From Candidatus Dormiibacter inghamiae (GTDB lineage Bacteria; Chloroflexota; Dormibacteria; Dormibacterales; Dormibacteraceae): a DNA stretch of 64,000 nt. The position numbers and the translations under genes were made by a program. This document shows, one piece after another, positions 5,105 through 63,709 of the stretch. Where the stretch lies: contig JAEKNQ010000028.1 of the NCBI GenBank assembly GCA_016464825.1, forward strand, positions 1 to 64,000. The letters are read 5' to 3'. The notes below the pieces were generated by a model. That model saw only the letters and a list, made by a program, of their open reading frames with translations. It was not told the origin of the DNA and ran no database searches. Every line of letters starts with the position of its first letter. Position 1 is the first letter of the stretch.

Positions 5105-7012
5105 CTAGGAAGTTTGCCCTACCAAAGCCGTCACGGAAGGCTCCGCCTCGGCTCCCGCCAGCAACTCCAGCAAACGGCGGCTGTGCTCATACTCGGGAAT
5201 CGAAGCCATCGGGGGTCTCTCGTGATCGGCGATCTCCACCACCTCCAGGAAGAAGGGACCGTTGGCGTAGTGGATCAGCTTCATCGATCGGTTCACCTCT
5301 TCGACCAGGTGCATGCGGTGGCGGTCACCAAGCCGCTTCAGCGCCACCTGCATGATCGCAAAGGCCATTTTGGAGAGGTTCAGTAGCTCCTGGTTGCGAT
5401 GGATGCGGACGCCCAGGTCCGTCTGCGCGATGGTGTTCAGGCCGAAGTTCTCCAGCAGGTCGATCAGATGCCCGACCTCCACTCCATAGCCTGTGAAGAA
5501 GGGCAGCCGCTCCAGGACCTCGCGTCTGCCGGCGTACTCGCCCGACAGAGGCTGGACCACGCCCGAGAGTTCGGGATAGAAGAGGTTCAGCAGAGGCCTG
5601 GCCGCCAACTCGGTGACTCGGCCGCCGCCGGCAGTGCGCAGCTCACCCCCGAATTGGAGGGGTCGGCGGTAGAAGCCCTTGACGTAGCCGATCCGGGGAT
5701 CGGTGAGTAGTGGACCGACCGTGCCATAGACGAACTGGGGGTGGATGTTCGAGATGTCCGTGTCGCACCACGCCACTATGTCGCCCCTCACCTGGTAGAG
5801 GCTCTTCCACAGCGCCTCCCCCTTGCCCCGAAAGGCACCCAGCTCGGAAAGGATCTGGGGATGCTGATAAACCGGCACGCCCAGGGAGCGGACGATGTCT
5901 ATGGTTCCGTCATCGGAGCCGGAGTCGACCACCACTATCTCGTCCAGCAGAGGGTGGCGCTGCATCAGCGAGGTCTTCATCACCGTGACCACCTCGCGGA
6001 TCGTGCTGGCTTCATTCAGCGTGGGCAGCGCCAGGCTGATCGTGAGACCCTGTCGGCGCTTCAACTCCACCAGCCGCCGCACATCGCGAAACTCGCGCGA
6101 GTGGAACGTGTTCTCCGCGAACCAGCGATCGACGACAGCTGAGATGTCTTGGGGGCGGCGAAGCATGAGCGGGGTGGGGGCCTCGCTGTCGCTGATGGCC
6201 GGCAGCGCTTGCGGGCTCTTGGTCAGGATCACATAGCCGTGCAGCGCGTCGACCGCGCGCGCCAGGCGAGAACCCACCACCACATGGGTCCGGCTCACCT
6301 CGGCATAGGCGCCAAGGACCACAGCGCCGTACTTCTGGCCCTCGGCGATGATGGCCTCACTGGGGTTGCGTGAATCGACTTCGACCACCTGGCAGTCATG
6401 ACCCGATTCCCTGACCAGTTGGCGAAACTGGTGGGACTCGCGCTCCCGGCGGTCAGGCGAGTGCCTGCCGTCACGCACGTGCAGCACGGTCAGCGATTGC
6501 CGCCAGGCCGCAGCAATGGCAGCGGCCACACGAAGGGCGAGCTGGGCGCTGGGGCCACCCCTCACCGGCACCAGCACCCCGAGGGCGGCAGCGCTGTCTG
6601 GCTGGGCCGCCCGAACGAGCACGAGATCGCTGGGCGGGCTCTCCAACAGATCTGCGATGCTGGCCCTCATGGTCACGTCGGCGTCCGGCCAGTCCATCAC
6701 TATGAGGTCCGTCGAGTTCTCGTAGGCTGCCTCGCGAATGCCCTGGGCGACGGTGTTGGCGACCCTGACCTGCACGCCGAGGGTGCGGTGGCGGCGGCCC
6801 TGCAGCGCGCTGATCCGGCGCAGTAGCGCTCGGTAGCGCCGGGCCACTGTCACGTTCTCAGCCACTGGCCGGCCGAAGGGATGTGCGACCACGCCAAGCA
6901 TCTGGCCGCTTCCGTTCTCGCCTCGGAGCACCGCCTCAGCAACACCCAGCAGCTCGCCGGCTGAGCTTTCCCGAATGATGGGAATGAGCAGGCGCGGCCG
7001 CTTATCCGCCAA
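5105..7012 (-). CDS. gpgS: Fusion: tandem universal-stress domains + glucosyl-3-phosphoglycerate synthase
   Basis: 635 residues. Residues about 5-135 and 145-265 are two Usp-like Rossmann domains. Residues about 325-600 are a GT-A glycosyltransferase of the GpgS type, which transfers glucose from NDP-glucose to 3-phosphoglycerate as the first step to glucosylglycerate. Supporting motifs are SLALPTLNE at 326-334, DSGSDDGT at 363-370, the metal-binding DTD at 417-419, SGEYAGRRE near 490-498 and H538 in RIHRNQE. Free-standing GpgS proteins are about 300-330 residues long, so the Usp part is an addition. The TTG start overlaps the upstream GT4 stop by 11 bases, so it is the last gene of the debranching enzyme-GT4-gpgS operon. 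Confidence 0.88.
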   Translation of the reverse strand: MADKRPRLLIPIIRESSAGELLGVAEAVLRGENGSGQMLGVVAHPFGRPVAENVTVARRYRALLRRISALQGRRHRTLGVQVRVANTVAQGIREAAYENSTDLIVMDWPDADVTMRASIADLLESPPSDLVLVRAAQPDSAAALGVLVPVRGGPSAQLALRVAAAIAAAWRQSLTVLHVRDGRHSPDRRERESHQFRQLVRESGHDCQVVEVDSRNPSEAIIAEGQKYGAVVLGAYAEVSRTHVVVGSRLARAVDALHGYVILTKSPQALPAISDSEAPTPLMLRRPQDISAVVDRWFAENTFHSREFRDVRRLVELKRRQGLTISLALPTLNEASTIREVVTVMKTSLMQRHPLLDEIVVVDSGSDDGTIDIVRSLGVPVYQHPQILSELGAFRGKGEALWKSLYQVRGDIVAWCDTDISNIHPQFVYGTVGPLLTDPRIGYVKGFYRRPLQFGGELRTAGGGRVTELAARPLLNLFYPELSGVVQPLSGEYAGRREVLERLPFFTGYGVEVGHLIDLLENFGLNTIAQTDLGVRIHRNQELLNLSKMAFAIMQVALKRLGDRHRMHLVEEVNRSMKLIHYANGPFFLEVVEIADHERPPMASIPEYEHSRRLLELLAGAEAEPSVTALVGQTS

Positions 7013-8219
7013 GCACCTGCTCCATGACCTGCTCGGTGGCTCGCATCACCTTAGGCCAGGCGAAGGTTCGCAAGACGTTCCGGCGCAGCCCAGCGGAAGG
7101 GCTGCTCAGTGCTTGAGCCAACTTCTCCGCGACAACCTCAGCTGGGGCGAAGGGGGGGAAGGTGAAGTTGCCGGTGCCCGGTTCCCGCAGCACGGGCAGG
7201 TCCGCGCAGACCAGCGGCGCGCGGACCAGTGCGGCCTCCAAGATCGGCAGGCCAAAACCCTCTGACTCACTGGGCAGCAGGATCACGTCTGCCAGCCGGT
7301 AGAGCTCGAAGACATCCCCCTGGCTGACGGGATGCGGCGCCTCGGGCGGGGTCTGCTCATGCAGGAAGGAAACTACAGGCTCCAGCCCGAGCTGCGAGCG
7401 GAGTCTCTCCAGTTCTCGCCAATAGGCAAGGTTGTCGCCGGAATGCGGGCCCAGGGGCCCAGTGACCACCAGCCGGAGCTGGGGTTCGCGCCGGCGAAGG
7501 ACAGCCGCTGCCGCCAAGGCCAGCTCCAGGCGTTTGCGGCGAGTGATGCGAACCGGGACCAGGATCAGCGGATCCGCGTCGCTGAAGCCGGCCTCGGCCC
7601 CCAGCTGCAGCACGTGGCTACTGAGCGAGAAGACCTGGGCCGGATCGATACCGTTGGGCACCATGGGCACCTGATCAACCGGCAGGCCGAGCACCGAGCA
7701 GATCTCCCGCCGGCGCACCTCGGAGATGGCCACGTAGGTGGTCCGCTCCTGAGGAACCTGCAGCAGGGAGGTGGGCCAGCTCGGGCGCTGGTAAGCCGAA
7801 TAACGAGGATTCACCCAGGCGAGGTCGTGGGTCCAGGCCACCTTGGGCAGTCCCAAATCAGCCAGGGCTCCAGCGGCGGGAAGGTTGAACGGCATTGTCA
7901 TCACGTTGTGGACCAGCACGAGCTCGCGATCTGAGAGTCTTTCCGAGAGGACTGCCCGCAATCGCGCTTGGAGCTGACCGAACTCTTCGCCGACATCATC
8001 GCCGGCGGCCAGAGCTCGGGTCACCAATTCCACCTCCGGGTGGCGTGAGTCCAACTCCGGGATCAACTCGGCGTCACCGCGCCCGGCCAGCACTCTCACG
8101 TCGTGCCCCGCGGCGCGGAGGAGATCGGCCTGAGCGCCGAGGATGGCTTCCACGCCGCCGGTGACGGGCGGTGCCGTGTAATGCAGGAGCGCTATCCGAC
8201 GGTACGTCCGGCGGGTCAG
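7002..8219 (-). CDS. GT4-family glycosyltransferase with probable CTG start
   Basis: A GT-B (GT4) glycosyltransferase. The donor-binding region includes LVPVRITRRKRLELA, and the E-x7-E motif is in LLPSESEGFGLPILEA. The first canonical start is a GTG at 8153, but it would cut off IALLHYTAPPVTGG, the glycine loop that its paralogue at 31672-32946 keeps (LALLHYSAPPVTGG). Between that loop and the upstream in-frame stop at 8282-8280 there is no ATG, GTG or TTG. A CTG at 8219-8217 overlaps the debranching-enzyme stop as CTGA, and I use it as the start. The substrate is unknown; an alpha-glucosyl or mannosyl transferase in the same pathway as gpgS is likely. Confidence 0.88.
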   Translation of the reverse strand: MTRRTYRRIALLHYTAPPVTGGVEAILGAQADLLRAAGHDVRVLAGRGDAELIPELDSRHPEVELVTRALAAGDDVGEEFGQLQARLRAVLSERLSDRELVLVHNVMTMPFNLPAAGALADLGLPKVAWTHDLAWVNPRYSAYQRPSWPTSLLQVPQERTTYVAISEVRRREICSVLGLPVDQVPMVPNGIDPAQVFSLSSHVLQLGAEAGFSDADPLILVPVRITRRKRLELALAAAAVLRRREPQLRLVVTGPLGPHSGDNLAYWRELERLRSQLGLEPVVSFLHEQTPPEAPHPVSQGDVFELYRLADVILLPSESEGFGLPILEAALVRAPLVCADLPVLREPGTGNFTFPPFAPAEVVAEKLAQALSSPSAGLRRNVLRTFAWPKVMRATEQVMEQVLGG

Positions 8220-10333
8220 GCGGGTAGCTCCAGCCGCAGGCCCACCGGCTGCCGATCCACCTGGACCTGGACCTGTCCGTCAGCCTGGCGAACAGTGAAG
8301 TCCAGCTCCCCGTCGGCTACGCGCATGCCCTCCACGCGCAGCAGTTTGTAAAGCGACGAGGGCAGGGGGTCGATCTTGAGCTGCGCGGTCAGCGCACTCA
8401 CCTGCACGCCGGCCAGAGTCTGCAGGAAATGGAATAGAGCTCCCGCCCCCCAAGCCTGGGGGCTGCAGCTGACCAGGTACTCGCCTGGCCCTGTGCCGAA
8501 GCGGCCGTCCCGCGCAAAGCCACAGAAGAGTTCCGGCACCCGCTTGTCGGAGAACCGCATGCACGCATCCATCATTGACCGCGCAACGAGCTCCGTCGCA
8601 TCCCGGCGGCCGTAGCGACTCATGCCGACGGCGATGATCGAATTGTCGTGCGGCCAGATGGAGCCGTTGTGGTAGCTCATGGGGTTGTAGCCGGGCTCTT
8701 GAGCCGAGAGGGTGCGGACGCCCCAGCCGCTGAAGAGATCGGGTGCGAGCAGCCGATTGACCACCTGGTCCCCGCGCTGCGCTGTCGCGATCCGCGACCA
8801 AAGGCAGTGGCCGGGGTTGCTGGTGATCGACCTGACCTGCCGCTTCTCGCCATCCAACGCCTGCGCGTAGAAGCTCAAGTCGGGCATCCAGAAAGCTTCG
8901 TTGAAGCGCCTGAACAGCTCCTCCGCCTGGGCTTGCAGCTTGTCCGCCTCCTGACGGCGGCCCAGGTGGCGCAGGATTCGAGCCAAGCCTGCCTTGGCGT
9001 GGTAGACGTAGCCCTGGACCTCGACCAGCGCCGCCGGCAGGGATGCGAACTGGTCGCCGTCCATGAGCGAATTCATGGAGTCCTTCCAGCCCTGGTTCCG
9101 GACTCCCGCGCTGCCGTGCTGGGAGTACTCGACGAAACCATCCCCGTCGTGGTCGCCATAGCTGTCGATCCACTCCAAGGCTGCCGTCACGTTGGCGCGC
9201 AGCTCGTCAAAGAGGTCGGTGTTGCCTGTCCAATCGATGAGCTCGACGAGCAGGACCAGGAAGAGAGGGGTGGCGTCGACAGTGCCGTAGTAGGGCGTGT
9301 GGGGGACCTGCTTCAGGTTGGCCAGCTCCCCGAACCGCATCTCGTGCAGGATCTTTCCGGGCTCCTCCTCCCGGAAGTGGTTCACCTCGGTGCCCTGCCG
9401 GCGAGCCAGATAGCGCAGGCTGCCGAGGGCCAGGTCGGGGTTGAAGGCGAGGGTCTGAAAGGAGGTGATCAGCGCGTCGCGCCCGAAAGGGACCGCGTAC
9501 CAGGGCAGCCCCGCGGTGGGGAAGAGGCCTGTCGAGCGATCGTCGCAGAGGACGCGCAGGTCCTCTCGGTTGCGCCAGATCAGCTCTGAGTCGAGCACTT
9601 CGTTGTCGGTGCCGAAATGGGTGCAGGTCGCGTTCCAGCCGGCATAGGTGTGTTCGAGCGACTCCAGCGCCTCGTCGAAGTGGAAGCCGTCAGGCTCAGC
9701 CTCAGCGCCCAGCCGGGGCAGGATGTCCACCAGCAGAACGAAGCGCTCCTGAGCTGACAGCTCAAGCCGAAAGGTGGCAGCCTCGCCGATCTGACTGGGC
9801 ATGGGGTCAAAACAGATCTCCGTGCGGCGCTGGACCTGATCCAGTCCCAGATACGAATAACGCATGCCCTCAGCCGTGCGAGCGACAGGCTCACGCCGCC
9901 CCATCTCCTGGGGGCGGTGGTAGCCGCGGACTTCGAAGATATCGAGGAAGTCGGCAGCAAAGTTGAGCTGCAGCTCCACCTCGACGGGATGCGTGTTCCA
10001 GTTCTGCAGACCGATTCTCTCGTGCATCCCGTTGTGGACGAAACGCGTGCGCCTGATGCTGAGCGTTTGTTTGGGGATGTAGCCAGGTTGATCCGGTTCG
10101 CCGAGCGCCGGATTGACGAGTTGGAACGTGGCGACGTAGGCCCTGTCCACGCTGCTGGAGAGCAGGATCGGCCGGACGTCGTTGATTCGCAGCTCATAGA
10201 CGGAGAGGAAGCGGGTGTCGGACCTGTAGAGACCCATGCCGTCCTCGTTGTCGGCGGGGATGTCACCGTCCAGCTCGGAGGCGGCGAAGAGGTCGTTCTG
10301 CTTCAGGATGATCCGGTCTTCGAGCAAGGCCAC
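8216..10333 (-). CDS. Glycogen debranching-type amylo-alpha-1,6-glucosidase
   Basis: 705 residues from a GTG. The N-terminal part (about 1-220) is a GDE_N_bis-type beta domain (LKQNDLFAASELDGDIP, YRSDTRFLSVYELR). The C-terminal part is an alpha/alpha barrel with FGRDALITSFQTLAFNPDLALGS-like and SIWPHDNSIIAVG motifs, typical of amylo-alpha-1,6-glucosidases and related glucosylglycerate/trehalose-like hydrolases. It heads an operon with a GT4 enzyme and GpgS, so it may trim an alpha-glucan or a glucosylglycerate-linked oligosaccharide. The start lies only 21 bases from the divergent der start, so each promoter must lie within the other gene. The exact substrate is not settled. Confidence 0.88.
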   Translation of the reverse strand: MALLEDRIILKQNDLFAASELDGDIPADNEDGMGLYRSDTRFLSVYELRINDVRPILLSSSVDRAYVATFQLVNPALGEPDQPGYIPKQTLSIRRTRFVHNGMHERIGLQNWNTHPVEVELQLNFAADFLDIFEVRGYHRPQEMGRREPVARTAEGMRYSYLGLDQVQRRTEICFDPMPSQIGEAATFRLELSAQERFVLLVDILPRLGAEAEPDGFHFDEALESLEHTYAGWNATCTHFGTDNEVLDSELIWRNREDLRVLCDDRSTGLFPTAGLPWYAVPFGRDALITSFQTLAFNPDLALGSLRYLARRQGTEVNHFREEEPGKILHEMRFGELANLKQVPHTPYYGTVDATPLFLVLLVELIDWTGNTDLFDELRANVTAALEWIDSYGDHDGDGFVEYSQHGSAGVRNQGWKDSMNSLMDGDQFASLPAALVEVQGYVYHAKAGLARILRHLGRRQEADKLQAQAEELFRRFNEAFWMPDLSFYAQALDGEKRQVRSITSNPGHCLWSRIATAQRGDQVVNRLLAPDLFSGWGVRTLSAQEPGYNPMSYHNGSIWPHDNSIIAVGMSRYGRRDATELVARSMMDACMRFSDKRVPELFCGFARDGRFGTGPGEYLVSCSPQAWGAGALFHFLQTLAGVQVSALTAQLKIDPLPSSLYKLLRVEGMRVADGELDFTVRQADGQVQVQVDRQPVGLRLELPA

Positions 10334-10354
10334 GAATTGTAAGAATGCTTTGGC

Positions 10355-11665: not shown

Positions 11666-11746
11666 GGGCTGCCTTTACAAAGAGTTCACGCCTGACACAC
11701 GCTTGGAAAGCCGATTGCGGTGCGTCTGGCCGCATGATTGATTGGC

Positions 11747-12451: not shown

Positions 12452-12464
12452 GCCGGCCCTGAGC

Positions 12465-16326: not shown

Positions 16327-16338
16327 GGGTGTCTCCCG

Positions 16339-21974: not shown

Positions 21975-22755
21975 GCCGCGCTTCTTTGAGCGACTGCGAC
22001 GAGCCGCCGCGAGCCGTCGGTCCCTTCTTTGTGTTGGGCTCGATCCGGACCCCGTTCGATTGCGGGGCGGCGCGTCAGGCGCTCTTGCTCACTGCAGCGA
22101 GGTGGTCCAGGCAACTCAGGAGCACGTCTGCTGCTACAAGCCCAACGCTGCGTTTTGGGAGCAGTACGGCGCCGACGGCCTGAAGGCTCTGGGCGAGCTG
22201 AGGCGGCGCATCCCCGAGGACATCCCTGTGCTCTATGACGCGAAGCGGGGCGACATCGACCACACGATGCGGGCCTACGCCAGCGCGATCTTCGAAGCCC
22301 TTGAGATGGACGCAGTGACCGCCCAACCCTATCTCGGCGGGGACTCCCTGCGCGAGCTGACCCAGCACCGGGCTCGGGGCGTCTACGTGGTCTGCCGCAC
22401 CTCGAATGCGGGCGCCGCGGATCTGCAGGAACAGGACACCGGCGGAGAGCCGCTGTATCTCCGGGTCGCCCGGCTGGCCCAGAGCCTGAACGAGTTCGAG
22501 AACGTGGGATTGGTGGTTGGCGCAACCGCGCCGGCTGAGATCGCGCGTGTGCGTCAGACCACGGCGCTGCCGTTTCTCATACCGGGGATAGGAGCCCAGG
22601 ACGGCGAGCTGGAGGCATCGGTCCGGGCCGCCTGGAACGGTGACGACGCGTCGTGCCTGATCAGCAGCAGCCGAGCGGTGCTCTACGCCGACGATCCCGG
22701 CGGAGCGGCAAGGCGGCTGAAGGATCAGATCAACGCAGTGCTGACAGAGCTGTGA
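21964..22755 (+). CDS. pyrF: Orotidine 5'-phosphate decarboxylase, type 2
   Basis: Final step of UMP synthesis. The protein has about 263 residues from the ATG at 21964; a GTG at 21946 would add six. LLCVGLDPDP near the N-terminus and the catalytic DAKRGDI, with its lysine between two aspartates, are type-2 PyrF signatures. QPYLGGDSL and PFLIPGIGAQDG complete the phosphate-binding barrel. The next gene starts inside its stop codon (GTGA). No other pyrimidine gene is adjacent. Confidence 0.93.
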   Translation: MPAEPRFFERLRRAAASRRSLLCVGLDPDPVRLRGGASGALAHCSEVVQATQEHVCCYKPNAAFWEQYGADGLKALGELRRRIPEDIPVLYDAKRGDIDHTMRAYASAIFEALEMDAVTAQPYLGGDSLRELTQHRARGVYVVCRTSNAGAADLQEQDTGGEPLYLRVARLAQSLNEFENVGLVVGATAPAEIARVRQTTALPFLIPGIGAQDGELEASVRAAWNGDDASCLISSSRAVLYADDPGGAARRLKDQINAVLTEL

Positions 22756-24023
22756 GTCAACGCGCTTCCACGCTGCTGCGGTTGGAGGGCCACATCATCG
22801 ACTCGATGATGCTGCCCCAGCTCATGGACATGGTCATGGACCTGGGCGGCTCGTTCGAGGTTCGCGAGCTGAAGGTCGGACAGCGGAACGACGATCCCTC
22901 GCTCTGCCGGATCGAGGTCTTTGCCGATCAGCCCCAGGTGTTGGACGAGATTGTGCGCCGAGCTCGCGATCTGGGGGCGCGGGCAGAGCACGACGAGCCC
23001 GTCGAGACCGCTCGGGTGCAGCAGGAGGGCGTCTACCCGGAGGGCTTCTACTCCACCAGCAACATGCCCACCTCAGTGCTCCTGGAGGGCGGCTGGGTGC
23101 GGGTGGCGAAACAGGAGATGGACTGCGCACTGGCGGTGGACCGCCAGCTGCGTAGGGCCTGGTGCATCCCCTTCTACGAAGCCAGGCCTGGACTGGATGT
23201 GGTCGTCGGCCACAGAGGGGTTCGGATCACTCCCCGCGAGCGCTCGCGCGACACCGAGATCTTCGGCTTCATGGCCAGCGAGGTCTCTTCTGAAAAGCCG
23301 AAAAACGTCCTGATCGGACAGATCGCGGCTGAGATGAAGGCTGTGCGGACCGCCGGCGGCCGGATCCTGGTAGTGGGTGGACCGGGCGTCGTGCACACGG
23401 GCGCCGGTCACTACCTTTCCCGGTTGATCGAGCTGGGCTACGTCCAGGTGCTCTTCGCCGGAAACGCCATAGCAGTGCACGATGTCGAAGCGGCGCTCTT
23501 CGGCACGGCGCTCGGGGTGAATCTGACGAGTGGCCTGGCGATCGAGCACGGCCACGAGCATCATATGCGGGCCATCAACCGGGTCCGTGCGGCCGGCAGC
23601 CTCGAGGCCATGGTGGAATCCGGGCAGCTCACCTCGGGCGTCATGAAGACAGCCATCGACAACGGGGTGGAGGTGGTCCTCGGTGGAAGTGTCCGAGACG
23701 ACGGCCCGCTGCCGGATGTGATCACCGAGATGGGGGAGGCTCAGCGCCGGATGCGGGGCGCCATCTGGCAGGGTGGCGACGACTTCGAGCCTGGGGTCCG
23801 GCTGGCTCTGATGCTCTCGACCATGCTTCACTCCATCGCGACAGGCAACATGCTGCCGGCGGCCGTACGCACAGTCTGCGTCGATATCAACCCGGCGGTT
23901 GTAACCAAGCTGGCCGATCGCGGAACCTGGCAATCGATAGGACTGGTCACCGACGTGGAGTCGTTCCTGCACGAGCTGGTTCGAGCCATCGAAGTTGGTC
24001 CGGCGGGAGAGGAGGCCAGATAG
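22752..24023 (+). CDS. Ornithine cyclodeaminase of the archaeal/LOR-SDH type (TIGR00300 family)
   Basis: About 423 residues from the GTG at 22752, which overlaps the pyrF stop (GTGA). The N-terminal strand STLLRLEGHIIDSMMLPQ and the C-terminal nucleotide-binding part (GRILVVGGPGVVHTGAG, then GNAIAVHDVEAALFGT) match the LOR/SDH conserved region seen in archaeal ornithine cyclodeaminase and the C-terminal half of cyanobacterial AgrE/ArgZ. Those enzymes convert ornithine to proline and ammonia. The arginine-degrading N-terminal domain of ArgZ is absent. An older name, LOR/SDH bifunctional enzyme, is not supported by function. The role here is inferred from family membership. Confidence 0.8.
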   Translation: MSQRASTLLRLEGHIIDSMMLPQLMDMVMDLGGSFEVRELKVGQRNDDPSLCRIEVFADQPQVLDEIVRRARDLGARAEHDEPVETARVQQEGVYPEGFYSTSNMPTSVLLEGGWVRVAKQEMDCALAVDRQLRRAWCIPFYEARPGLDVVVGHRGVRITPRERSRDTEIFGFMASEVSSEKPKNVLIGQIAAEMKAVRTAGGRILVVGGPGVVHTGAGHYLSRLIELGYVQVLFAGNAIAVHDVEAALFGTALGVNLTSGLAIEHGHEHHMRAINRVRAAGSLEAMVESGQLTSGVMKTAIDNGVEVVLGGSVRDDGPLPDVITEMGEAQRRMRGAIWQGGDDFEPGVRLALMLSTMLHSIATGNMLPAAVRTVCVDINPAVVTKLADRGTWQSIGLVTDVESFLHELVRAIEVGPAGEEAR

Positions 24024-24397
24024 CCAGGGTCTACGCTTTCATCGGCATCATCGCCGGCCTGCTCAGTGGGCTGCTTGGCGTCGGTGGGGGCTTCCTGATG
24101 GTGCCACTCCAGGTGATGCTGGCGCGGACCCGCCAGGTTGAGGCGACCGCCAATTCGCTCACCGCTATAGTGCCGATCTCCATCACCGGCATCCTGATCT
24201 ACTACTTCGGCGGGTTCCTCGGCCAGCGCGGCGCGCCCCAGGTGGATTTCCGCTTCGCCCTGCTGCTTGCCGCCGGCGGCGTTTTCGGGGCCTTCGTGGG
24301 GGCTCGGCTCACTTCGCGCATGCCTGACATATGGCTAGCCCGGGGGGTGGCGGTGGTCCTCGGCGCGGTGGGCGTGAAGCAGGTGCTCTTTCCTTGA
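24020..24397 (+). CDS. TauE/SafE-like permease, half-length protein 1, probable ATA start
   Basis: 125 residues if translation starts at ATA 24020-24022, which overlaps the upstream stop as ATAG. That start gives ARVYAFIGIIAGLLSGLLG followed by VGGG, the family's first helix and glycine motif. The first canonical start is the ATG at 24098, which would delete this helix. The protein has about four membrane segments and ends where the second half begins (TTGA overlap). Full-length TauE/SafE anion exporters have about 250 residues in two such repeats, so the two half-proteins may assemble into one transporter. The substrate is unknown. Confidence 0.75.
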   Translation: MARVYAFIGIIAGLLSGLLGVGGGFLMVPLQVMLARTRQVEATANSLTAIVPISITGILIYYFGGFLGQRGAPQVDFRFALLLAAGGVFGAFVGARLTSRMPDIWLARGVAVVLGAVGVKQVLFP

Positions 24398-24795
24398 GCG
24401 ATGTGCTGGCGGTGATCAGCGGGTTCGTGGTTGGCGTGGTCAGCGGGCTAATAGGCATAGGTGGGGGAGTCCTGCTGGTGCCGATCATGGTGATCGGCTT
24501 CAAGTTCGAGCAGCACCTGGCCCAGGGCACGTCGCTGGCCGCGATCCTGCCCACCTCGATAGTGGGCGCACTGACGCACTCCCGCAGCGGCAATGTCGCG
24601 CTGAAGCAGGCTCTCATCATGGGCGTGGCGGGAGCTCTGGTGGTGGTCTTTGGGGCCACCCTCGCTCTCTGGCTGCACGGTGAGGTGCTGGCGCGCCTGT
24701 TCGGCGCCTTCCTCCTCTTTTCCGCCTATCGGCTGTGGCCGCGCCGCCACAAAGTGCCCCAAACGCCTGTCGACGAGACCGGCGCTCAGGCCTGA
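24394..24795 (+). CDS. TauE/SafE-like permease, half-length protein 2
   Basis: 133 residues from a TTG that overlaps the upstream stop (TTGA). It repeats the family motif (VGVVSGLIGIGGGVLLVP at about 13-30) and the QGTSLAAILPTSIVGALTH stretch, followed by hydrophobic helices and a short polar tail. The frame is open back to 24331, but that part is glycine/arginine-rich and overlaps gene 1, so I prefer the TTG. With its partner it would make up one two-repeat permease. Confidence 0.8.
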   Translation: MSDVLAVISGFVVGVVSGLIGIGGGVLLVPIMVIGFKFEQHLAQGTSLAAILPTSIVGALTHSRSGNVALKQALIMGVAGALVVVFGATLALWLHGEVLARLFGAFLLFSAYRLWPRRHKVPQTPVDETGAQA

Positions 24796-31671: not shown

Positions 31672-32946
31672 ATGGACGACGCCTCCCAGCAGCCGCCTGA
31701 TTCGCTTTCGGGATTGCCCCCTAAGCCACGGCTGGCCCTGCTGCACTACAGCGCTCCACCGGTAACCGGCGGCGTTGAATCAGTGCTTGGGGAGCAGGCA
31801 GGCCGCCTTGCCGCCGCCGGCTACGACGTCCGCATGATCGCTGGGCGGGGGGACGGCGAGCTACTCCCAGAGTTGGACACCGCTCACCCCAGAGTCCGGC
31901 GCGTCTTCCGGGAGCTGCTGGCCGGGCGGGGCTCGGAGACCGAGTTCCGCGAGCTGAGCTCAACCATCGCCGGCCGCCTCCAACCGCTGCTGGCCGATCG
32001 TGACTGCGTGATAGTCCACAACGTGCTTTCGATGCCCTTCAACCTGCCGTTCACTGCTGCTCTCCTGGCCTCACGCCGCCGGCTTGTTGCGTGGGTCCAC
32101 GACGTGGTGATCCGAGACGACGACGGCTCCCCGGTCGAGAGCGTCAACTACCCTTTCAGTCTCATCAACCAGCGGCAACCGGGCGTGAGTTATGTGGCGA
32201 TCTCGGAGACCCGCCGGGAGGATCTGCGCCGGCTCTGGCGGGAGCCCGAAGCCGAGGCGGAGGTCGTCCCCAACGGCATCGACAGCCAGCGGTTTGCAGG
32301 GCTTTCGAGGAAGCTGATGGGGCTTCTCTCCCCGATTCCGGTGGACCGGGCTTGGCCACTCATTCTCATCCCACAGCGCGTGACCGAGAACAAGCGCATC
32401 GAGCTGGCTCTGGCGGCCGCGGCACAGCTGCGTCAGCGCCTGCCGGGGCTGACGGTGCTGGTCACCGGGCCGAGTGACCCGCATTCCCACCAGGGCGAGT
32501 TGCTCTCGCAGCTACTCCGTCGCCGGCAGGAGCTGGGCCTCAACGGAACAGTTCATTTTTTTGCCGAGCAGGCAGTTACTGGGCGAGCCCACCCGATCAA
32601 CACCGACGATATCGCGATGCTCTACCGCCTGAGCGATGCAGTCCTGCTGACAGGCAGAGCAGAAGGCTTCGGCCTGCCTTTGCTGGAGGCCGCCCTGGCC
32701 CGGGTGCCCGTCGTCTGTGCAGCGCTTCCCGTCTTCCAAGAGATCAGCGGCGGCGACATCTATCCCTTTCCGGTTTCCGGGGACCCCGCGTCAATCGCTG
32801 AGGCTCTACTCAAAGCATTGGACACAGTGGTCGCGCGCTCTCGCCGCCGCGTGCTCCAACGCTACTCCTGGCCGGTCATCATGGAGCAGCTGGAAGCTGT
32901 GATAGCCGGCGCGGTAGCCCCACGAGGCGTCGCCGCAGCTCCTTAG
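31672..32946 (+). CDS. GT4-family glycosyltransferase (paralogue of 7002-8219)
   Basis: 424 residues. Its N-terminus, LALLHYSAPPVTGGVESVLG, and its C-terminal donor site, TGRAEGFGLPLLEAALARVP, closely match the GT4 enzyme of the gpgS operon. It has a canonical ATG and an extra N-terminal tail of about 23 residues. It stands alone, divergent from the DUF3147-like pair. The paralogy suggests a related alpha-glycosyl transfer, perhaps acting on the same glucan. Donor and acceptor are not known. Confidence 0.9.
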   Translation: MDDASQQPPDSLSGLPPKPRLALLHYSAPPVTGGVESVLGEQAGRLAAAGYDVRMIAGRGDGELLPELDTAHPRVRRVFRELLAGRGSETEFRELSSTIAGRLQPLLADRDCVIVHNVLSMPFNLPFTAALLASRRRLVAWVHDVVIRDDDGSPVESVNYPFSLINQRQPGVSYVAISETRREDLRRLWREPEAEAEVVPNGIDSQRFAGLSRKLMGLLSPIPVDRAWPLILIPQRVTENKRIELALAAAAQLRQRLPGLTVLVTGPSDPHSHQGELLSQLLRRRQELGLNGTVHFFAEQAVTGRAHPINTDDIAMLYRLSDAVLLTGRAEGFGLPLLEAALARVPVVCAALPVFQEISGGDIYPFPVSGDPASIAEALLKALDTVVARSRRRVLQRYSWPVIMEQLEAVIAGAVAPRGVAAAP

Positions 32947-42143: not shown

Positions 42144-44623
42144 GTCAGGCCGCGAAGCTCGTACAGCTTGCGCAGAGCCTCCAAGGGGCTGAGCTGATCC
42201 AGCTCGATCGCGGCCAGCTCGCGGCGCAGTTCGGCCTCCCCGGGCTGCAGGTCAAGCCCCAGCTGCTGCGCGGCGGGCTCCAGGGGTCGGTGGCTCTCCA
42301 GCTCAGCCAGGATCTGCCGGGCCCTGGCGATCAGGTGTGGCGGTAAGCCCGCCAGCGCCGCGACATGAATTCCGTACGAACGGTCGGCGCCGCCGGGGAC
42401 TACCTTATGCAGGAAGCTGACCTGGTTCCCTTCTTCGGCAACCTCCACCCGCTCGTTGCGCACTCTCGGCAGCCGCTCGGCCAGCGTTGTGAGCTCGTGA
42501 TAGTGGGTGGCGAAGAGAGTCCGGCAGTGGAGCCGGGGGTTGTCATGCAGGTACTCGACCACAGCCTGGGCGATGGAGACGCCGTCGTAGGTGGAGGTGC
42601 CCCTCCCCACCTCGTCCAGCACCAGCAGGGATGCGGGCGTGGCGTGGTTCAGGATGTTCGCCGTCTCGGTCATCTCGACCATAAAGGTCGACATGCCGCC
42701 CGCCAGGTCGTCGTGGGCGCCGACCCTTGTGAAGATGCGGTCGACCAGGCCGATGCGGGCCGAGCGAGCAGGGACGAAGCTGCCGCACTGGGCCAGCAGG
42801 ACGATCAGTGCCACCTGGCGCAGGTAGGTGGACTTGCCGGCCATATTGGGGCCTGTCAGCACCACCATGTCGCCTCTCTCGGGCTCCAGGTGGGTGTCGT
42901 TGGCGACGAAGTTGCCGGCGCCAACGGAGCGCTCGACGAGTGGGTGCCGCCCTCCACTGATAACCAGCTCCCGGCCGCTGGAGATCAGCGGTCGCACCCA
43001 GTCGCAGTCGGCCGCGGTCGCCGCGAGGCTCACCAGAGCATCGAGTTGGCCGATCGCCGCAGCGGTGCCGAGCAGCTCTCCGCTTACGGCGGCAATGCTT
43101 CGGCCGAGTTCTGCGAGAATCTCCTGCTCCCGTGCCGCGCGATCCTGGTCGGCGTTCAGCACCACTGCTTCGCGCTCCTTCAGCTCGGGAGTTATGTAGC
43201 GCTCGCCGCCGGTCAAGGTCTGCTTGCGGATGTAATGCTCGGGCACGCCCGGGGCCTGGCTGTGGCTGACCTCCAGGTAGTAGCCGAAGACACGGTTGTA
43301 GCCGACCTTGAGCGACCTGATGCCAGTGCGCTCGCGCTCGCCCGCTTCCAGACCGGCGAGCCACTCCCGCGCCGAAGCGGAGGCCGAGGCGATTGCGTCC
43401 AACTGCGCGTCGTAGCCCGGCCGGACGGCCCCCGCCGCGTTCACCTGAGCCGGTGGATCTTCGACCAGCGCTCGGCCCAGCAAGGCCACGAGCTCGGGCT
43501 GCTCAGTCAGATCTGCGGCCAGCTGGCGGAGCAGAAGCGCGCTCCCGGCCCCTGCGTGGACCTTCGCCGCCGGTAGGGCCGCTAAGGCGCGGCAGAGCTG
43601 CCCGAGCTCGCGGGGCGTGGCCAGCCCGCTCGCAGCCCGACTCGCCAGGCGCTCCAGGTCGCCCAGCCGTCGCAGGGCGGCTTCGAGCTCCAGGCGTTCG
43701 GCATCGGTCAGCTCGGCCACTGCGCTGAGCCGAAGCTCGATCGCCTCGGGGTCGCGGAGCGGCGCCCAGAGCCAGCGGCGCAGGCTCCTGGCGCCGACAG
43801 GGGTGACGCAGCGGCAGCAGAGCTCGAACAGCGCACCCACCTCAAGGTTGCGCACGGTGACCGCGTCCAGCTGCATACTGGCGTCGATCGAGCGTGTGCT
43901 GATGCGCAGGCTGCGCGGATCGAGAGGCACCCGGTTGTGTTCCAGATACTCCAGCAGGACGCCTGCCGCGCCGACCGCCAGCGGCGCGCCCTCGGCCCCG
44001 ATCGAAGCCAGGAAGTGGACGCCCAACAGCGTCCGCAGCCGGTGCTGGCCCCGCGCCGGGTCAAATCGATAGCGCTCGACATCGGGCGGGCTGAGCAGCT
44101 CGGCCGCTTGAAGCCGGTCCAGCTCAGCTGCGAGACCTGTGGTGGGCAGCTGGCAGAGCTGCATCTCTGCGGTGGAGACGTCGCAGGCGGCCAGGCCTGA
44201 CTCATCGCCGCTGCTCCAGGCGGCGACGAGCCAGTTTGACTTGGCGGGATCGAGGTAGACCTCGTCCAGCACCGTGCCGGGCGTAAGAACGCGCGTCACC
44301 TCGCGCGCCACCAGCTTGCCGCTCATCGGTGGCTCAGTCTGATCGCAGATCGCGACCTTCCGACCTGCTTTGAGAAGCCGGCCCACGTAGCTCTGCCAGG
44401 CGTGATGCGGCACGCCGCACATGGGGGTGCGGCCGTCTTTGGCCGGCCGAGAAGTCAGCGTGATGCCGAGGAGCGGCGCCGCCTCCTTGGCGTCATCGAA
44501 GAAGATCTCGTAGAAGTCGCCCATCCGGAAGAGCAAGATGGCGTCGGGGTGGGCCGCTTTGGCCGACCAGTACTGGCGCATGGCCGGCGTTTCACCGCCT
44601 GGCCGTTTCAGGTCAAGAGACAA
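42140..44623 (-). CDS. mutS: DNA mismatch recognition protein MutS
   Basis: 827 residues from a TTG, 11 bases into the end of miaB. The mismatch-reading F-x-E is in FRMGDFYEIF. The ABC ATPase has Walker A GPNMAGKSTYLRQ, the Walker B/signature region (VEMTETANILNHA, LVLDEVGRGTSTYDG) and the His loop ATHYHELT. An alternative start is the internal ATG of MRQYWSAK, 14 residues in. It is followed by mutL. Confidence 0.96.
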   Translation of the reverse strand: MSLDLKRPGGETPAMRQYWSAKAAHPDAILLFRMGDFYEIFFDDAKEAAPLLGITLTSRPAKDGRTPMCGVPHHAWQSYVGRLLKAGRKVAICDQTEPPMSGKLVAREVTRVLTPGTVLDEVYLDPAKSNWLVAAWSSGDESGLAACDVSTAEMQLCQLPTTGLAAELDRLQAAELLSPPDVERYRFDPARGQHRLRTLLGVHFLASIGAEGAPLAVGAAGVLLEYLEHNRVPLDPRSLRISTRSIDASMQLDAVTVRNLEVGALFELCCRCVTPVGARSLRRWLWAPLRDPEAIELRLSAVAELTDAERLELEAALRRLGDLERLASRAASGLATPRELGQLCRALAALPAAKVHAGAGSALLLRQLAADLTEQPELVALLGRALVEDPPAQVNAAGAVRPGYDAQLDAIASASASAREWLAGLEAGERERTGIRSLKVGYNRVFGYYLEVSHSQAPGVPEHYIRKQTLTGGERYITPELKEREAVVLNADQDRAAREQEILAELGRSIAAVSGELLGTAAAIGQLDALVSLAATAADCDWVRPLISSGRELVISGGRHPLVERSVGAGNFVANDTHLEPERGDMVVLTGPNMAGKSTYLRQVALIVLLAQCGSFVPARSARIGLVDRIFTRVGAHDDLAGGMSTFMVEMTETANILNHATPASLLVLDEVGRGTSTYDGVSIAQAVVEYLHDNPRLHCRTLFATHYHELTTLAERLPRVRNERVEVAEEGNQVSFLHKVVPGGADRSYGIHVAALAGLPPHLIARARQILAELESHRPLEPAAQQLGLDLQPGEAELRRELAAIELDQLSPLEALRKLYELRGLT

Positions 44624-45914
44624 TTGGGCCGGCCAGATGACCCGGCGTGGCCGCTGTGACGCTGACGGCGACCAGTTCTCCCGGCTGGACCCGTGAGCGC
44701 AGAACTGTCACGCGCTTGCCCTGGCGGTTTCGCCCGTAGGGCCGGCCGAGCTGGTCACAGCCTTCAATCAGCACCTCAGCTGTGCGACCTAGCCAACGCG
44801 CCGTACGGCGGGCAGCGATCTCGCGCTGAAGCTGAAGCAGGTCGTTGATTCGGCGCCGCTTCACTTCGGCAGGCACGTCGTCGGGCCACTTCTCCCCCGC
44901 GTGGGTGCCGGGCCTGGGCGAGTACTGAGCGACATGAACGACGTCGAACTCCACTTCCTGCAGGAGCCGGCGGGTGTTGAGAAACGCCTCCTCAGTCTCG
45001 CCCGGGAAGCCGACGATGACGTCTGTATAGAGGCCCAGGTCGGGCATCAGGCGGCGGGCCTCGTTCACGATCGCCAGATAGTGCCGCAGCTGGTAGCCGC
45101 GCGCCATCCGGCGCAGGATCAGGTCGTCACCTGACTGCACAGGCAGCTGAAGCTCGTGGGCGACTTTCGGGTTGGCTGCCATCACCTTCAGCAGCTCCGG
45201 CTCCAGGTCCTGCGGATGCGAGGTCATGAAACGCACGCGCAGCAGTCCCTCTATCTCGCTCACCGCGCTGACCAGAGCCGCCAGCCCGCCGCCGGTCGCT
45301 GGATCGTGATAGTCGTCGACGTTCTGGCCGAGCAGGATGACCTCCCGAGCGCCCTGCTGTACGGCCTGGTGACATTCCTTCACCACCTTGACCAGAGGCT
45401 GGTGAACCTCACGGCCGCGCACTTTGGGCACTATGCAGAACGTGCAGTTGTGATCGCAGCCCTGGATCACGTTGACGTAATGGCTGACCAGGGTGCGTCC
45501 CGCCGCGGGCAGCGGCTCGCCCTGGGCCCAGTCGTACCTTGCCTCCAGATCGCGCAGGAAAGGATCGTAATCGCCGATCGGCACCACTGCATCCAGGTGC
45601 GCGAAACGCGACAGGAGGGCGTTTCCTTCCTTCCCTACCAGGCAGCCCGTGAGCGCGATGGTGCGCTCGGGGCTCTTCCAGCTGCGGAGCTCGTGAAGCT
45701 TGGAGTACACCTTCTCCTCGCTCGCCTGGCGCACTACGCAGGTGTTGAGGACAACTATGTCAGCCCGCTCCAGGTCGGGGGCCTCGACGTAGCCAGCCGC
45801 CAGGAGACGGCGCGAGAGGCTCTCGGAATCCGCCAGGTTCATCTGGCAGCCGATGGTCCAGACGTGGAAACTGCGGGAGCCGGCTTTGGCCGGCCCGGGC
45901 AGCGGACCCGACAG
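44613..45914 (-). CDS. miaB: tRNA-2-methylthio-N6-dimethylallyladenosine synthase MiaB, probable near-cognate start
   Basis: A radical SAM methylthiotransferase of about 433 residues from a CTG at 45914. The auxiliary cluster needs three cysteines: here the first is in HVWTIGCQMN, the second in NTCVVR and the third in GCLVG. The radical SAM cluster is GCDHNCTFC, and a TRAM domain ends the protein. The first canonical start is the ATG in GCQMN (45842), which would remove the first cysteine. No ATG, GTG or TTG lies between it and the spoVS stop in the same frame. CTG 45914 has GAGG eight bases before it, the best of several near-cognate options (CTG 45902, ATT and ATC upstream). Confidence 0.9.
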   Translation of the reverse strand: MSGPLPGPAKAGSRSFHVWTIGCQMNLADSESLSRRLLAAGYVEAPDLERADIVVLNTCVVRQASEEKVYSKLHELRSWKSPERTIALTGCLVGKEGNALLSRFAHLDAVVPIGDYDPFLRDLEARYDWAQGEPLPAAGRTLVSHYVNVIQGCDHNCTFCIVPKVRGREVHQPLVKVVKECHQAVQQGAREVILLGQNVDDYHDPATGGGLAALVSAVSEIEGLLRVRFMTSHPQDLEPELLKVMAANPKVAHELQLPVQSGDDLILRRMARGYQLRHYLAIVNEARRLMPDLGLYTDVIVGFPGETEEAFLNTRRLLQEVEFDVVHVAQYSPRPGTHAGEKWPDDVPAEVKRRRINDLLQLQREIAARRTARWLGRTAEVLIEGCDQLGRPYGRNRQGKRVTVLRSRVQPGELVAVSVTAATPGHLAGPIVS

Positions 45915-45959
45915 CTCTCGCGCCTCACCAATAACGGGCAGCGGGATCTGAGCCGTGGG

Positions 45960-56346: not shown

Positions 56347-56356
56347 GACAACTCCG

Positions 56357-57034
56357 CTAGAGCAGCCGCAGCTGCGCCGGCTCAAGTGAGCCGGCGGGCC
56401 GGGGCAGCGGCGCTGGGCCAGGCGTCGGGGGATGATCCGAAGGGGTCGCCTCCAGGTTCTCCCGAGCGCGACTCGCGAAGCTGTCAAGATGTGCGCGGAC
56501 CCGCTCGAAGTCTCGCTGCAGATCCGCCAACAGAGAGCCGTTGTGAAGGGCCGCCGCCGGGTGGTAGCAGGGCATGAAACCGACTCCCGAGCGCTCGAAG
56601 AACTGACCGTGCACGCGCGAGATCGAGCCGACGCCGGGCAGCATCTGCTGCAGCGCGTGCCGGCCCAGGATCAGAACCGCCTTCGGCCTGACCAGTTTGA
56701 ACTGGCGGCGCAGATAGGGCAGGCAGGTCTCAGCCTCCAGCGGCAGGGGGTCGCGGTTCTGGGGCGGCCGGCACTTGACGACGTTGGTGATGAAGACCTG
56801 CGAGCGGTCCAGGCCGATTTGAGCCAGCAGTTTGTCCAACAGCTGGCCCGCGGCGCCCACGAAGGGCTTGCCCTGAAGGTCCTCGTTGAACCCCGGGCCT
56901 TCCCCCACTACCATGATCTCGGCCGGCGCCGGCCCGGTGCCTGGGACAGCGTTGGTCCGCGTCGTATGAAGCTGGCAGAGCGTGCAGACCCGAATCTGGG
57001 CATGGAGCGCCTCCAGCCCTTCGGCTGCGATCAG
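56357..57034 (-). CDS. udg: Uracil-DNA glycosylase, family 4 (Fe-S), probable CTG start
   Basis: 225 residues from the CTG at 57034, which overlaps the dapA stop as CTGA. The four cluster cysteines are C17 and C20 (RVCTLCQLH), C88 (VVKCRPPQNR) and C104 (AETCLPYL). The active-site motif is GEGPGFNEDLQGKPFVG, with CYHPAAALHN near the C-terminus. The first canonical start, ATG 56914, would remove the CxxC pair. Between the upstream in-frame TGA (near 57110) and that ATG there is no ATG, GTG or TTG. Removal of uracil from DNA is the expected activity. The proline-rich tail is likely disordered. Confidence 0.92.
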   Translation of the reverse strand: MIAAEGLEALHAQIRVCTLCQLHTTRTNAVPGTGPAPAEIMVVGEGPGFNEDLQGKPFVGAAGQLLDKLLAQIGLDRSQVFITNVVKCRPPQNRDPLPLEAETCLPYLRRQFKLVRPKAVLILGRHALQQMLPGVGSISRVHGQFFERSGVGFMPCYHPAAALHNGSLLADLQRDFERVRAHLDSFASRARENLEATPSDHPPTPGPAPLPRPAGSLEPAQLRLL

Positions 57035-57951: not shown

Positions 57952-57954
57952 GCC

Positions 57955-58977: not shown

Positions 58978-59073
58978 GAGCGCTAGAGTCTACCGCCGGT
59001 CAGCCTGGGCGACCCGCCTGGGAATCAGTCTGATGCTTGCAACCGCTCCAGTCAGGCCAGCCAGTTGGTTCCG

Positions 59074-59811: not shown

Positions 59812-59829
59812 CGCTGACTTAGACCGGTC

Positions 59830-62052: not shown

Positions 62053-62057
62053 GTTGT

Positions 62058-62141
62058 ACCTCCATAGGGAGGTCAGGGACCTTGCAACCGGCTGCGACCT
62101 GAGGAAACCCGCTGTCGCGGCAGGGTGCCAGGGGCCTGACC
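62058..62141 (-). promoter_or_regulatory. pnp leader with two mutually exclusive helices
   Basis: On the minus strand ACCTCC (62073-62068) can pair with the Shine-Dalgarno GGAGGT (62063-62058) over a four-base loop, five bases from the GTG. The same anti-Shine-Dalgarno bases are part of CCTGACC (62077-62071), which can instead pair with GGTCAGG upstream (62141-62135). Forming the long helix would free the Shine-Dalgarno. Control by PNPase digestion of the upstream strand is a natural model. Confidence 0.55.
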
Positions 62142-62156
62142 CCCAACAAATATTGT

Positions 62157-62174
62157 GGGCGGGTCTTCCCGCCC
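62157..62174 (-). terminator. Hairpin after rpsO
   Basis: GGGCGGG and CCCGCCC (62157-62163 and 62168-62174) form a 7-bp stem six bases after the rpsO stop. An AT-rich stretch (ACAATATTTGTT) follows on the minus strand. It may partly stop transcription or protect the 3' end of the rpsO message, leaving some read-through to pnp. Confidence 0.55.
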
Positions 62175-62180
62175 GTTCTC

Positions 62181-62450
62181 CTATCGCCTGATACCCAACT
62201 TCGAGATCAGAGCGCGGTAGCGCTCGACGTCGTTGCGGCCCAGGTAGTTCAGCAGGCGACGCCGCTTGCCGACCAGGAGAAGAAGGCCGCGTCGGGAGTG
62301 ATGGTCCTTCTGATTGACCTTCAGGTGCTCAGTGAGCTGCTTGATGCGCTCTGAGAAGATGGCAACCTGAACTTCTGGCGAGCCTGTGTCTGAGTCGTGG
62401 AGCCGATGCTCTCCGACAAGCCTTTCCTTGACTGCGCTATCTACTGCCAA
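62181..62450 (-). CDS. rpsO: 30S ribosomal protein S15
   Basis: 89 residues from a TTG, the standard length. [41 protein letters not shown] and [19 protein letters not shown] are S15 hallmarks. It binds the central domain of 16S rRNA. The rpsO-pnp order is conserved across bacteria. It starts 35 bases after xylH, so it probably has its own promoter inside that gene. Confidence 0.97.
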
Positions 62451-62485
62451 ACCGAAAGATTAGTCTACCGAAAGGTTGGGGCGGT

Positions 62486-63709
62486 CTACGCCTTGCCTGA
62501 CGCCTGCCGACCGTGCCGGGCGACGCCGTCGATGGTCACCGCCGCGAGCAGAACCGCACCCGTGATGACGAACTTGATCGACGCCGGCAGTCCCAGCAGG
62601 TCCATCCCGTTCGAGATCGAGATGATCACCAACGCGCCGGTGACAGCCGACCAGACGGAGCCCCGGCCGCCGAACAGCGAGGTACCGCCGATCACGGCTG
62701 CTGCGATGACGTTCAGCAGCAGGTCCGAGCCACCGGACGACTGATTGACGGCGAGCAGCCGTGACGCGGCCAGAACCCCGCCGCACGCCGCCATGACGCC
62801 GGCCAGCGCGAAGACGGCGACGCGGATGCCGTTCACGGATATGCCTGCGCGGCGTGCGGCCTCCGGGCTACCGCCAACCGCCATGATGTAGCGCCCGAAC
62901 CGGGTTCGCCGAACCAGGAAGTCGAATCCGACGGCGAATCCGAGCAGAATGAGCAGCGCCAGGGGCACGCCGAGGTAGCCGTTCAGCACCACCAGAGCCG
63001 CAGCGACCAGGATTACGAGAACTATCAGCCCCGCCAGCCAGGCGCCGATGGGACCGACGTCCAAGTCGGCGGCCCGGCGCCGGCGCCGGGTCAAGAGCCC
63101 GCTGCCGGCGAACGCCAGAATCACAACCACACCCACCGCCCACCCTGCCCAATCGGGCAGATAGGTGCCGGCCAGGGCGTCGATGGTGGTATCCGGGAGG
63201 TTGAGCGTCCCGGTGGAGCCCAGGACCAGCAGCAGGGCGCCCTGCCACGCCAACAGTCCCGCCAGCGTGACCACGAACGAGGGGATGCGCAGCCGGCTGA
63301 ACCAGAAGCCCTGGACGAGTCCGATGGCGCCGCCCGCCGCGATGGCGCTCGCGATCGCCAGCCATGCCGGCAGCCCGTGCTTCACGTTCAGGACTGCCAT
63401 GATGCCGGCGCAGAGCCCGCTGACCTGTCCCACCGACAGGTCGATCTCCCCCAGCAGCAGGACCAGCACTATGCCAACCGAGATGGTTCCGGTCGCGGCC
63501 GTCTGAGTCGCCAGGTTGGTCAGGTTGCGTGGCGTCAGGAAGTTGGGGTTCAGGAACCAAAAGATCGCCCAGATCAGGATGAGGCCGACGATGACCGGCA
63601 GGGAGCCGACGTCTCCCTCCCGAAGGCGGCGCACGCGGCTCGTGAGCCAGCCGCCAACACCAGTCGTGGCCTCGGCGCCTGCGGGTTGCGGCTGAACGGC
63701 AGTGCTCAG
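62486..63709 (-). CDS. xylH: Sugar ABC transporter permease (XylH/RbsC type), probable CTG start
   Basis: About 407 residues from the CTG at 63709, which overlaps the upstream ATPase stop as CTGA and gives STAVQPQPAG. About ten membrane helices follow, with LLLGEIDLSVGQVSGL and IGGTSLFGGRGSVWSAVTGALV, the branched-chain/ribose permease signature. The long loop between helices fits XylH. Another option is a GTG in SRVRRLREGD, about 26 codons in, which would still keep all helices. It imports a sugar together with the partial ATPase gene upstream. Confidence 0.9.
   Translation of the reverse strand: MSTAVQPQPAGAEATTGVGGWLTSRVRRLREGDVGSLPVIVGLILIWAIFWFLNPNFLTPRNLTNLATQTAATGTISVGIVLVLLLGEIDLSVGQVSGLCAGIMAVLNVKHGLPAWLAIASAIAAGGAIGLVQGFWFSRLRIPSFVVTLAGLLAWQGALLLVLGSTGTLNLPDTTIDALAGTYLPDWAGWAVGVVVILAFAGSGLLTRRRRRAADLDVGPIGAWLAGLIVLVILVAAALVVLNGYLGVPLALLILLGFAVGFDFLVRRTRFGRYIMAVGGSPEAARRAGISVNGIRVAVFALAGVMAACGGVLAASRLLAVNQSSGGSDLLLNVIAAAVIGGTSLFGGRGSVWSAVTGALVIISISNGMDLLGLPASIKFVITGAVLLAAVTIDGVARHGRQASGKA

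Follow-up and report, generated by a model that had tools for sequence, protein, structure and literature searches.

Near-cognate start codons are regarded as rare curiosities in bacteria, one reason being that gene finders accept no codons but ATG, GTG and TTG (the canonical start codons in what follows). The closest described systems are infC, the gene of initiation factor 3 (IF3), which starts with ATT in E. coli and with ATC in Streptomyces, and Streptomyces sigR, whose GTC start has been proven to be repressed by IF3 and is GTT in two of 34 species (both from excerpts of PMC5472188). Ribosome profiling of Caulobacter crescentus assigned 0.7% of the mapped starts to CTG and 0.25% to others, about 1% in total (PMC4117421, in excerpt). 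According to the accessible passages of PMC9094748, CTG, ATT and ATC are not enriched at initiation sites of M. tuberculosis, and discrimination against CUG in vitro is described in an excerpt of PMC11497404. Stop-start overlaps (AUGA, UAAUG) and termination-reinitiation have been reviewed (PMC5972666), the overlap passage in the accessible part dealing mainly with eukaryotes and their viruses. Among the matches listed in open-access literature, nothing was found on near-cognate starts in Dormibacterota. In this study, we analyse a stretch of 64,000 nucleotides (the window; contig JAEKNQ010000028.1, assembly GCA_016464825.1) of Candidatus Dormiibacter inghamiae, a member of the Dormibacteraceae, which are uncultured bacteria of soil, in which five genes had been noted for lacking a satisfactory canonical start, together with the remaining genome and its relatives. 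We consider it likely that this Dormibacterota family initiates 1-2% of its genes at near-cognate codons by ordinary Shine-Dalgarno (SD)-guided initiation with an ordinary formylmethionine (fMet) initiator tRNA.

The initial annotation of the window had placed a CTG or ATA on the upstream stop codon in four of the five genes, and so the sequence reads, with CTGA at 8219(-), 57034(-) and 63709(-) and ATAG at 24020(+). The fifth gene, miaB, has its CTG without stop overlap (CTGT at 45914(-)), as had been described. The ordinary four-base junctions named for comparison are likewise borne out: GTGA at 4036 (4036-4039, plus strand) and at 22752, TTGA at 24394 and at 38007(-). The gene of a GT4-like glycosyltransferase (GT; 7002-8219, minus strand) has its CTG at 8219-8217, overlapping the upstream TGA, and an SD-like GGAG at 8228-8231 (minus strand; anti-SD duplex -5.6 kcal/mol); its first canonical codon is GTG 8153, residue 23. 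The gene of a TauE/SafE half-transporter (24020-24397, plus strand) has ATA at 24020-24022, overlapping the upstream TAG, four bases behind the SD sequence AGGAGG (24010-24015, plus strand), whose duplex of -12.0 kcal/mol is stronger than any other among the 11 scored near-cognate starts; ATG 24098, residue 27, is the first canonical codon. In miaB (44613-45914, minus strand) CTG 45914-45912, preceded by an SD-like TGAGG (45923-45927, minus strand; -7.4 kcal/mol), and the in-frame ATT 45932-45930 are the sole candidate starts before the motif, with no ATG, GTG or TTG; the first canonical codon, ATG 45842 (residue 25), is the Met of GCQMN itself. Finally, the gene of a family-4 uracil-DNA glycosylase (UDG; 56357-57034, minus strand) has CTG 57034-57032 overlapping the upstream TGA, and ATG 56914, residue 41, as its first canonical codon.

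In these four proteins homology begins upstream of the first canonical codon, the earliest profile match lying at residue 8 (GT), 5 (TauE), 16 (MiaB) and 8 (UDG). For MiaB, TIGR00089 matches above its cut-off from profile position 2 at residue 16, and a protein begun at ATG 45842 would lack the Cys of TIGCQMN. For UDG, TIGR00758 (above cut-off) matches from residue 17 and NF040953 (below cut-off) from residue 8; begun at ATG 56914, the protein would lack both CTLC cysteines. We take the MiaB TIGCQMN and the UDG CTLC cysteines to be cluster ligands. Pfam TauE covers residues 5-120 of the half-transporter, and a start at residue 27 would drop the first hydrophobic segment. The case of GT rests on its orthologues, since the earliest match (position 1 of NCBIfam MSMEG_0565 at residue 8, E 1.7e-20) stays under the curated cut-off and Pfam Glyco_transf_4 begins only at residue 21. 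The absence of a satisfactory start holds for GT, TauE, MiaB and UDG and is doubtful for the fifth gene, an ABC sugar permease (62486-63709, minus strand; CTGA at 63709). Here GTG at codon 26 is a plausible start, and homology leaves the matter undecided, since the profiles begin downstream of it, at residue 39 (GguB) or 63 (Pfam). Two of these genes have related copies in the window. The TauE/SafE exporter is encoded as two adjacent half-size genes (24020-24397 and 24403-24795), the second half also matching the first, and a paralogue of the CTG-starting GT (31729-32904; 46% identical) has ordinary ATG and TTG candidates.

The initial annotation had proposed aligning these proteins to relatives, and this comparison gave the same picture across the family. 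The nearest named relative by MiaB is Candidatus Dormiibacter spiritus (93%). The miaB loci were divided by identity to the query (>60% versus <60%), and of 32 Dormibacteria-like loci three partial ones were left out. No ATG, GTG or TTG occurs within 25 codons of the motif in 24 of the remaining 29, as compared to 0 of 48 other loci (Fisher p 2e-15); a canonical codon is absent within 60 codons, or up to an in-frame stop, in 21 of the 29, and in three it lies at 26-60. In most family loci, the end of the upstream gene reads ...GTGGAGAGTCG or nearly so and runs into CTGA, ATAA or GTAA, usually with a GGAG shortly before. The junction is CTGA in 14 loci, ATAA in seven, GTAA in three and missing in five. 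Not one of the 24 frame-matched junctions reads ATGA, GTGA or TTGA, a pattern which suggests that the weakness of the start itself is conserved in miaB. The exchange of CTG, ATA and GTA recalls sigR, where a conserved noncanonical start is likewise swapped for another weak codon; sigR differs in being one regulatory gene with experimental proof, whereas here many housekeeping genes are concerned, from sequence alone. The window genome and its sister genome lack such an overlap in miaB; their CTG lies downstream of that place and has an SD-like stretch of its own. The sister families f2-f4 (20 stretches and L274) are uninformative for miaB, as the protein seems longer there.

For GT, nine family loci share the upstream open reading frame of about 500 codons (the window genome among them; paralogues and a single partial locus were excluded). 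All nine have CTGA at the junction and eight have the GGAG; within 30 codons of the LHYTAP motif, ATG, GTG and TTG are missing in six, and in three a canonical codon is close by. In tauE, 22 of 30 loci are without a canonical codon across the 26 codons before the motif, and ATA recurs among the loci, replaced by GTA in L122, L123 and L125; ATAG behind an upstream gene of more than 400 codons is found only in the window genome, L114 and L115. For UDG, 19 of 30 loci have no ATG, GTG or TTG within 40 codons before the motif. At the UDG 5' ends of L088-L112, an AAG is widely kept between the in-frame stop and CxxC, with GTG instead in L100 and L102.

The frequency of such genes was estimated with a codon-model gene caller on one quarter of the window genome (784 kb of 3.09 Mb, 64 contigs), which gave 705 genes with a complete 5' side. 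By a conservative rule, a gene was called start-less when at least 10 codons and at least 8 bits of coding signal lie ahead of the first ATG, GTG or TTG. Start-less genes number 24/705 in the window genome and 6/163 in G006, another family member, 2/168, 3/186 and 1/139 in other Dormibacteria families, and 3/212, 1/191 and 3/178 in the non-Dormibacteria controls Sinorhizobium meliloti pSymB, the Cupriavidus metallidurans chromid and Streptomyces (581 genes together). This amounts to 30/868 in the two family members versus 13/1074 in the six other sets (p 0.001). An Azospirillum brasilense control was dropped because the caller settled on wrong frames (51 of 136 genes flagged), and none of its results were used. 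Start-less genes were pooled with frame-matched noncanonical junctions as flagged genes (35 in the window genome, 10 in G006, 10 in sister families, eight in pSymB, two in Cupriavidus and five in Streptomyces). Homology was asked for 25 of the 35 flagged genes of the window genome, for eight of the ten in G006 and for all of those in the other sets, and in addition for one unflagged MerR gene and for miaB of the window genome, which the screen had left unflagged and which was taken from the initial annotation.

A case was counted as supported when an NCBIfam or Pfam profile match begins at least nine residues before the first canonical codon. Twelve of the 705 genes (1.7%) are of this kind, namely GT, TauE, MiaB, UDG, TreY, TsaD, KsgA, HAD, RdgB, a RluB-like and a SuhB-like protein and IF3; the figure is a working lower one and not a census. 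Homology reaching past the first canonical codon is scarce in the controls taken: the cases found by the screen itself, without miaB, are 11 of 705 as compared to 0 or 1 of 581 (Fisher p 0.0014 or 0.016), the sole control gene passing the rule being a pSymB transposase with HTH_21 and rve domains, which is presumably an IS3-type OrfB made by frameshifting. In G006, an M1 and an S11 peptidase pass the rule, a protein of the MFS type is one residue short and miaB is flagged; the sister families yield one weak case with a profile six residues ahead (L280). Near misses in the window genome are prmC (profile from residue 11-14, canonical codon at 15) and the L241 methyltransferase and L240 ABC protein, with profiles 5-7 residues ahead; adding the latter two would raise the twelve to 14. 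The bifunctional-nuclease gene of L004 has the look of a CTG start, with a Pfam match that stops short of the tip. A gene finder that knows only ATG, GTG and TTG would shorten such proteins, as had been anticipated.

The supported cases are of the same order as the near-cognate starts of Caulobacter (PMC4117421, in excerpt), less than twice as frequent by another method, and in both CTG is the commonest start outside ATG, GTG and TTG. The Caulobacter figures were measured by ribosome profiling, whereas ours rest on homology alone and come with conservation or exchange of the codon among orthologues. Our numbers could thus reflect a general, unnoticed looseness of GTG-rich, high-GC bacteria and nothing special in this lineage, the more so as one sister family, f3, shows the trait too (infC, ksgA and one tsaD locus). 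We hold this to be possible and yet unlikely. Apart from the transposase, the 581 genes of the high-GC controls contain no homology-supported near-cognate start, each of the 48 miaB loci from elsewhere offers ATG, GTG or TTG at a distance of 25 codons or less, and M. tuberculosis initiation sites are without enrichment of CTG, ATT and ATC (PMC9094748, accessible passages).

A chance test of junctions, of the kind that had been proposed, was made in the 784 kb: 15 of 168 C-TGA stops are followed by a frame-matched downstream gene without a canonical start from -15 to +6 codons, versus 3 of 149 (C/G/T)TA stops (one-sided Fisher p = 0.006). The raw number of CTGA junctions was rejected as evidence: 17 of 47 are CTGATG, where an ordinary ATG follows at once, and in others an ATG comes a few codons later. 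It is homology and not junction counts that separates the cases.

Among the further genes, infC was read at thirty loci, of 45 genomes with a match, and a canonical codon is in reach in none of the thirty. The start is ATC in 17 and ATA in seven of the 24 family loci, behind AGG, and in the sister family f3 it is ACG behind GGAGG in all six loci (L408-L413). As in the described infC genes, an SD sequence and an IF3-discriminated codon are conserved in relatives; different are the ACG of the sister family and the eleven more genes in a quarter of the genome. In tsaD, no canonical codon occurs in 34 codons in 10 of 25 family loci (outside the family in one of five). A canonical codon nearby is missing in 4 of 24 usable family loci of rdgB (0 of five outside) and in 5 of 26 of ksgA (three of four outside, all f3). 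The ksgA loci document the exchange of codons: at a place 23-26 codons ahead of the motif, at least 16 of the 26 have GTGA, ATGA or TTGA; L375 and L377 have CTGA at -26, and the window genus has CTGA at -11. In f3, ACG-CCG is kept in all four ksgA loci, a start at ACG being one reading. With the ACG of f3 infC and the ACG-CCG of f3 ksgA, the trait extends beyond a single family. Taken together with the four window genes, homology indicates that near-cognate starts are recurrent in the genome and across the family, as the initial annotation had supposed.

The annotation had also tied these starts to four-base overlaps and translational coupling. Many do overlap the upstream stop (GT, TauE, UDG, TreY, TsaD, KsgA, HAD and 24 of 29 family miaB loci). 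There is no stop overlap in rdgB, infC and miaB of the window genome, where the candidate codon follows an in-frame stop after two codons (rdgB, TAG-ACC-GGG-CTG), five codons (infC) and 15 codons (miaB CTG), so that coupling is not required. SD duplexes, compared by medians and rank tests only, are stronger at the 11 near-cognate starts than at random sites at the group level (median -6.1 versus -3.35; Mann-Whitney U test, p 0.005) and resemble those of 85 canonical four-base junctions (p 0.49). From these sequences we infer initiation at the near-cognate codons themselves, presumably with fMet. The family would accept CTG above all, also ATA and ATC, and a sister family ACG. At stop overlaps (CTGA, ATAA, ATAG) a terminating or SD-held ribosome would already be over the codon, so that a weak codon may be enough. 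This would resemble known stop-start overlaps, with the start codon one base ahead of the stop, and differ from them in that CTG, ATA or GTA replaces ATG (PMC5972666, accessible part). IF3 discriminates against such codons, and a low, IF3-sensitive output would be expected.

Alternatively, the downstream protein could be an extension of the upstream one, made by ribosomal frameshifting or fusion through a slip at the overlapping stop. The downstream frame is indeed open across the junction in the overlap cases, and the pSymB transposase is one gene of such appearance among the controls. This is nevertheless very improbable for the set as a whole, if less firmly so for each overlap gene taken singly, given that in-frame stops lie shortly before the sole candidate codons in rdgB, infC, miaB of the window genome and L301 tsaD, that SD sequences stand at start distance ahead of several codons and that relatives have ATGA, GTGA or TTGA at the matching place of ksgA. 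For rdgB and infC of the window genome, the stops two and five codons ahead exclude read-in from upstream.

Equally hard to maintain is a true start at the downstream canonical codon with vestigial homology upstream, which the permease would allow with its GTG and to which the rapid change of the tips lends some colour. Between the window and the sister genome, the stretches from the near-cognate start to the first canonical codon of seven genes differ by 14 synonymous and 22 nonsynonymous codon changes (20 of 42 changes at third positions), versus 58 and 19 after the first canonical codon. A downstream start would however delete the MiaB GCQMN Cys, the UDG CTLC cysteines, RdgB ATGN and KsgA SLGQN, all kept in relatives, as well as the HAD DLDGT motif seen in the window genome. 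Sequencing or assembly errors masking ATG, GTG or TTG are a negligible prospect: the window genome and its named relatives are metagenome-assembled genomes or metagenome assemblies, yet other species, whose genomes were assembled independently, show the same codons again, as for miaB, GT and infC.

Several observations weigh against SD-guided initiation at near-cognate codons as the favoured explanation. The tips are weakly constrained, and the substitution pattern gives weak support: it speaks in favour for UDG and against, or unclearly, for ksgA, rdgB and miaB. As the tips change fast between sisters, the initiating codon is indicated by position, homology and SD sequence and not by constraint on the tip. 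A canonical codon lies nearby in 15 of 25 tsaD, 20 of 24 usable rdgB and 21 of 26 ksgA family loci, and within 25 codons in 5 of 29 Dormibacteria loci of miaB, where L146 and L152 have GTG-ATG at the expected place of the start. In L147, L156 and L171, the miaB overlap is 33-47 codons ahead of the motif and may not be the start there. Weak SD duplexes are found for rdgB (-4.0), prmC (-3.0) and the L241 methyltransferase (-2.8), and in S. meliloti pSymB there are four "strict" frame-matched CTGA junctions that an ATG follows after 9-15 codons. In the rdgB locus L344 (G007), none of ATG, GTG, TTG, CTG, ATA, ATT and ATC occurs in the 34 codons before the motif. Finally, in 7 of the 19 UDG loci without ATG, GTG or TTG, CTG is missing too, which leaves their start unexplained. 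CTG as the sole rule for UDG relatives was rejected, since these seven would need to start at AAG or CTT.

What is new relative to the precedents is the conservation and the exchange of the codons, more than their frequency. Orthologue comparison alone points to a lineage with 1-2% of near-cognate genes, some of them kept across the whole family. If initiation is as we propose, annotation of this soil group cuts conserved residues off its protein models, some of these residues lying in active sites, and start-codon statistics drawn from annotations are biased.

Concerning the initiation machinery, the initial annotation had thought of an unusual IF3, initiator tRNA or 16S rRNA. Upon inspection this found no support, all being ordinary but for one position of IF3. 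The factor is full length and keeps Arg99 and Lys110; in place of Arg116 (E. coli numbering), 21 of the 23 scored family loci have Gln and all six f3 loci have Ser (L384-L413 set). The inspection of infC also revealed that the gene itself stands on ATC or ATA in every family locus read. As infC keeps a weak start in all 30 loci, IF3 discrimination is probably intact, and the near-cognate genes are therefore candidates for control by IF3. One may go further and picture a Dormibacteria regulon on IF3-discriminated starts, in which genes for RNA maturation and repair are prominent (MiaB, TsaD, KsgA, a pseudouridine synthase, RdgB, UDG and IF3) and in which the codon drifts among CTG, ATA, GTA, ATC and ACG, is kept weak, as the miaB junctions suggest, and lets the IF3 level set the joint output; we put this forward as a tentative and rather doubtful extension. 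If near-cognate initiation is true, the group would be a natural test of why weak starts persist and of co-regulation by IF3.

The remaining components are of the common type. By eye, the initiator tRNA shows the GGG/CCC anticodon stem and the C1:A72 mismatch, and the initiator stem was seen in none of the other tRNAs of the genome's tRNA list. An altered initiator tRNA was therefore rejected. The 16S rRNA has G1338, A1339 and a standard anti-SD. Loss of RsmI as a cause was rejected likewise, since 45 of 46 genomes have the enzyme. The window genome further contains a tRNA-Sec gene (anticodon tca; L012, 441-540).

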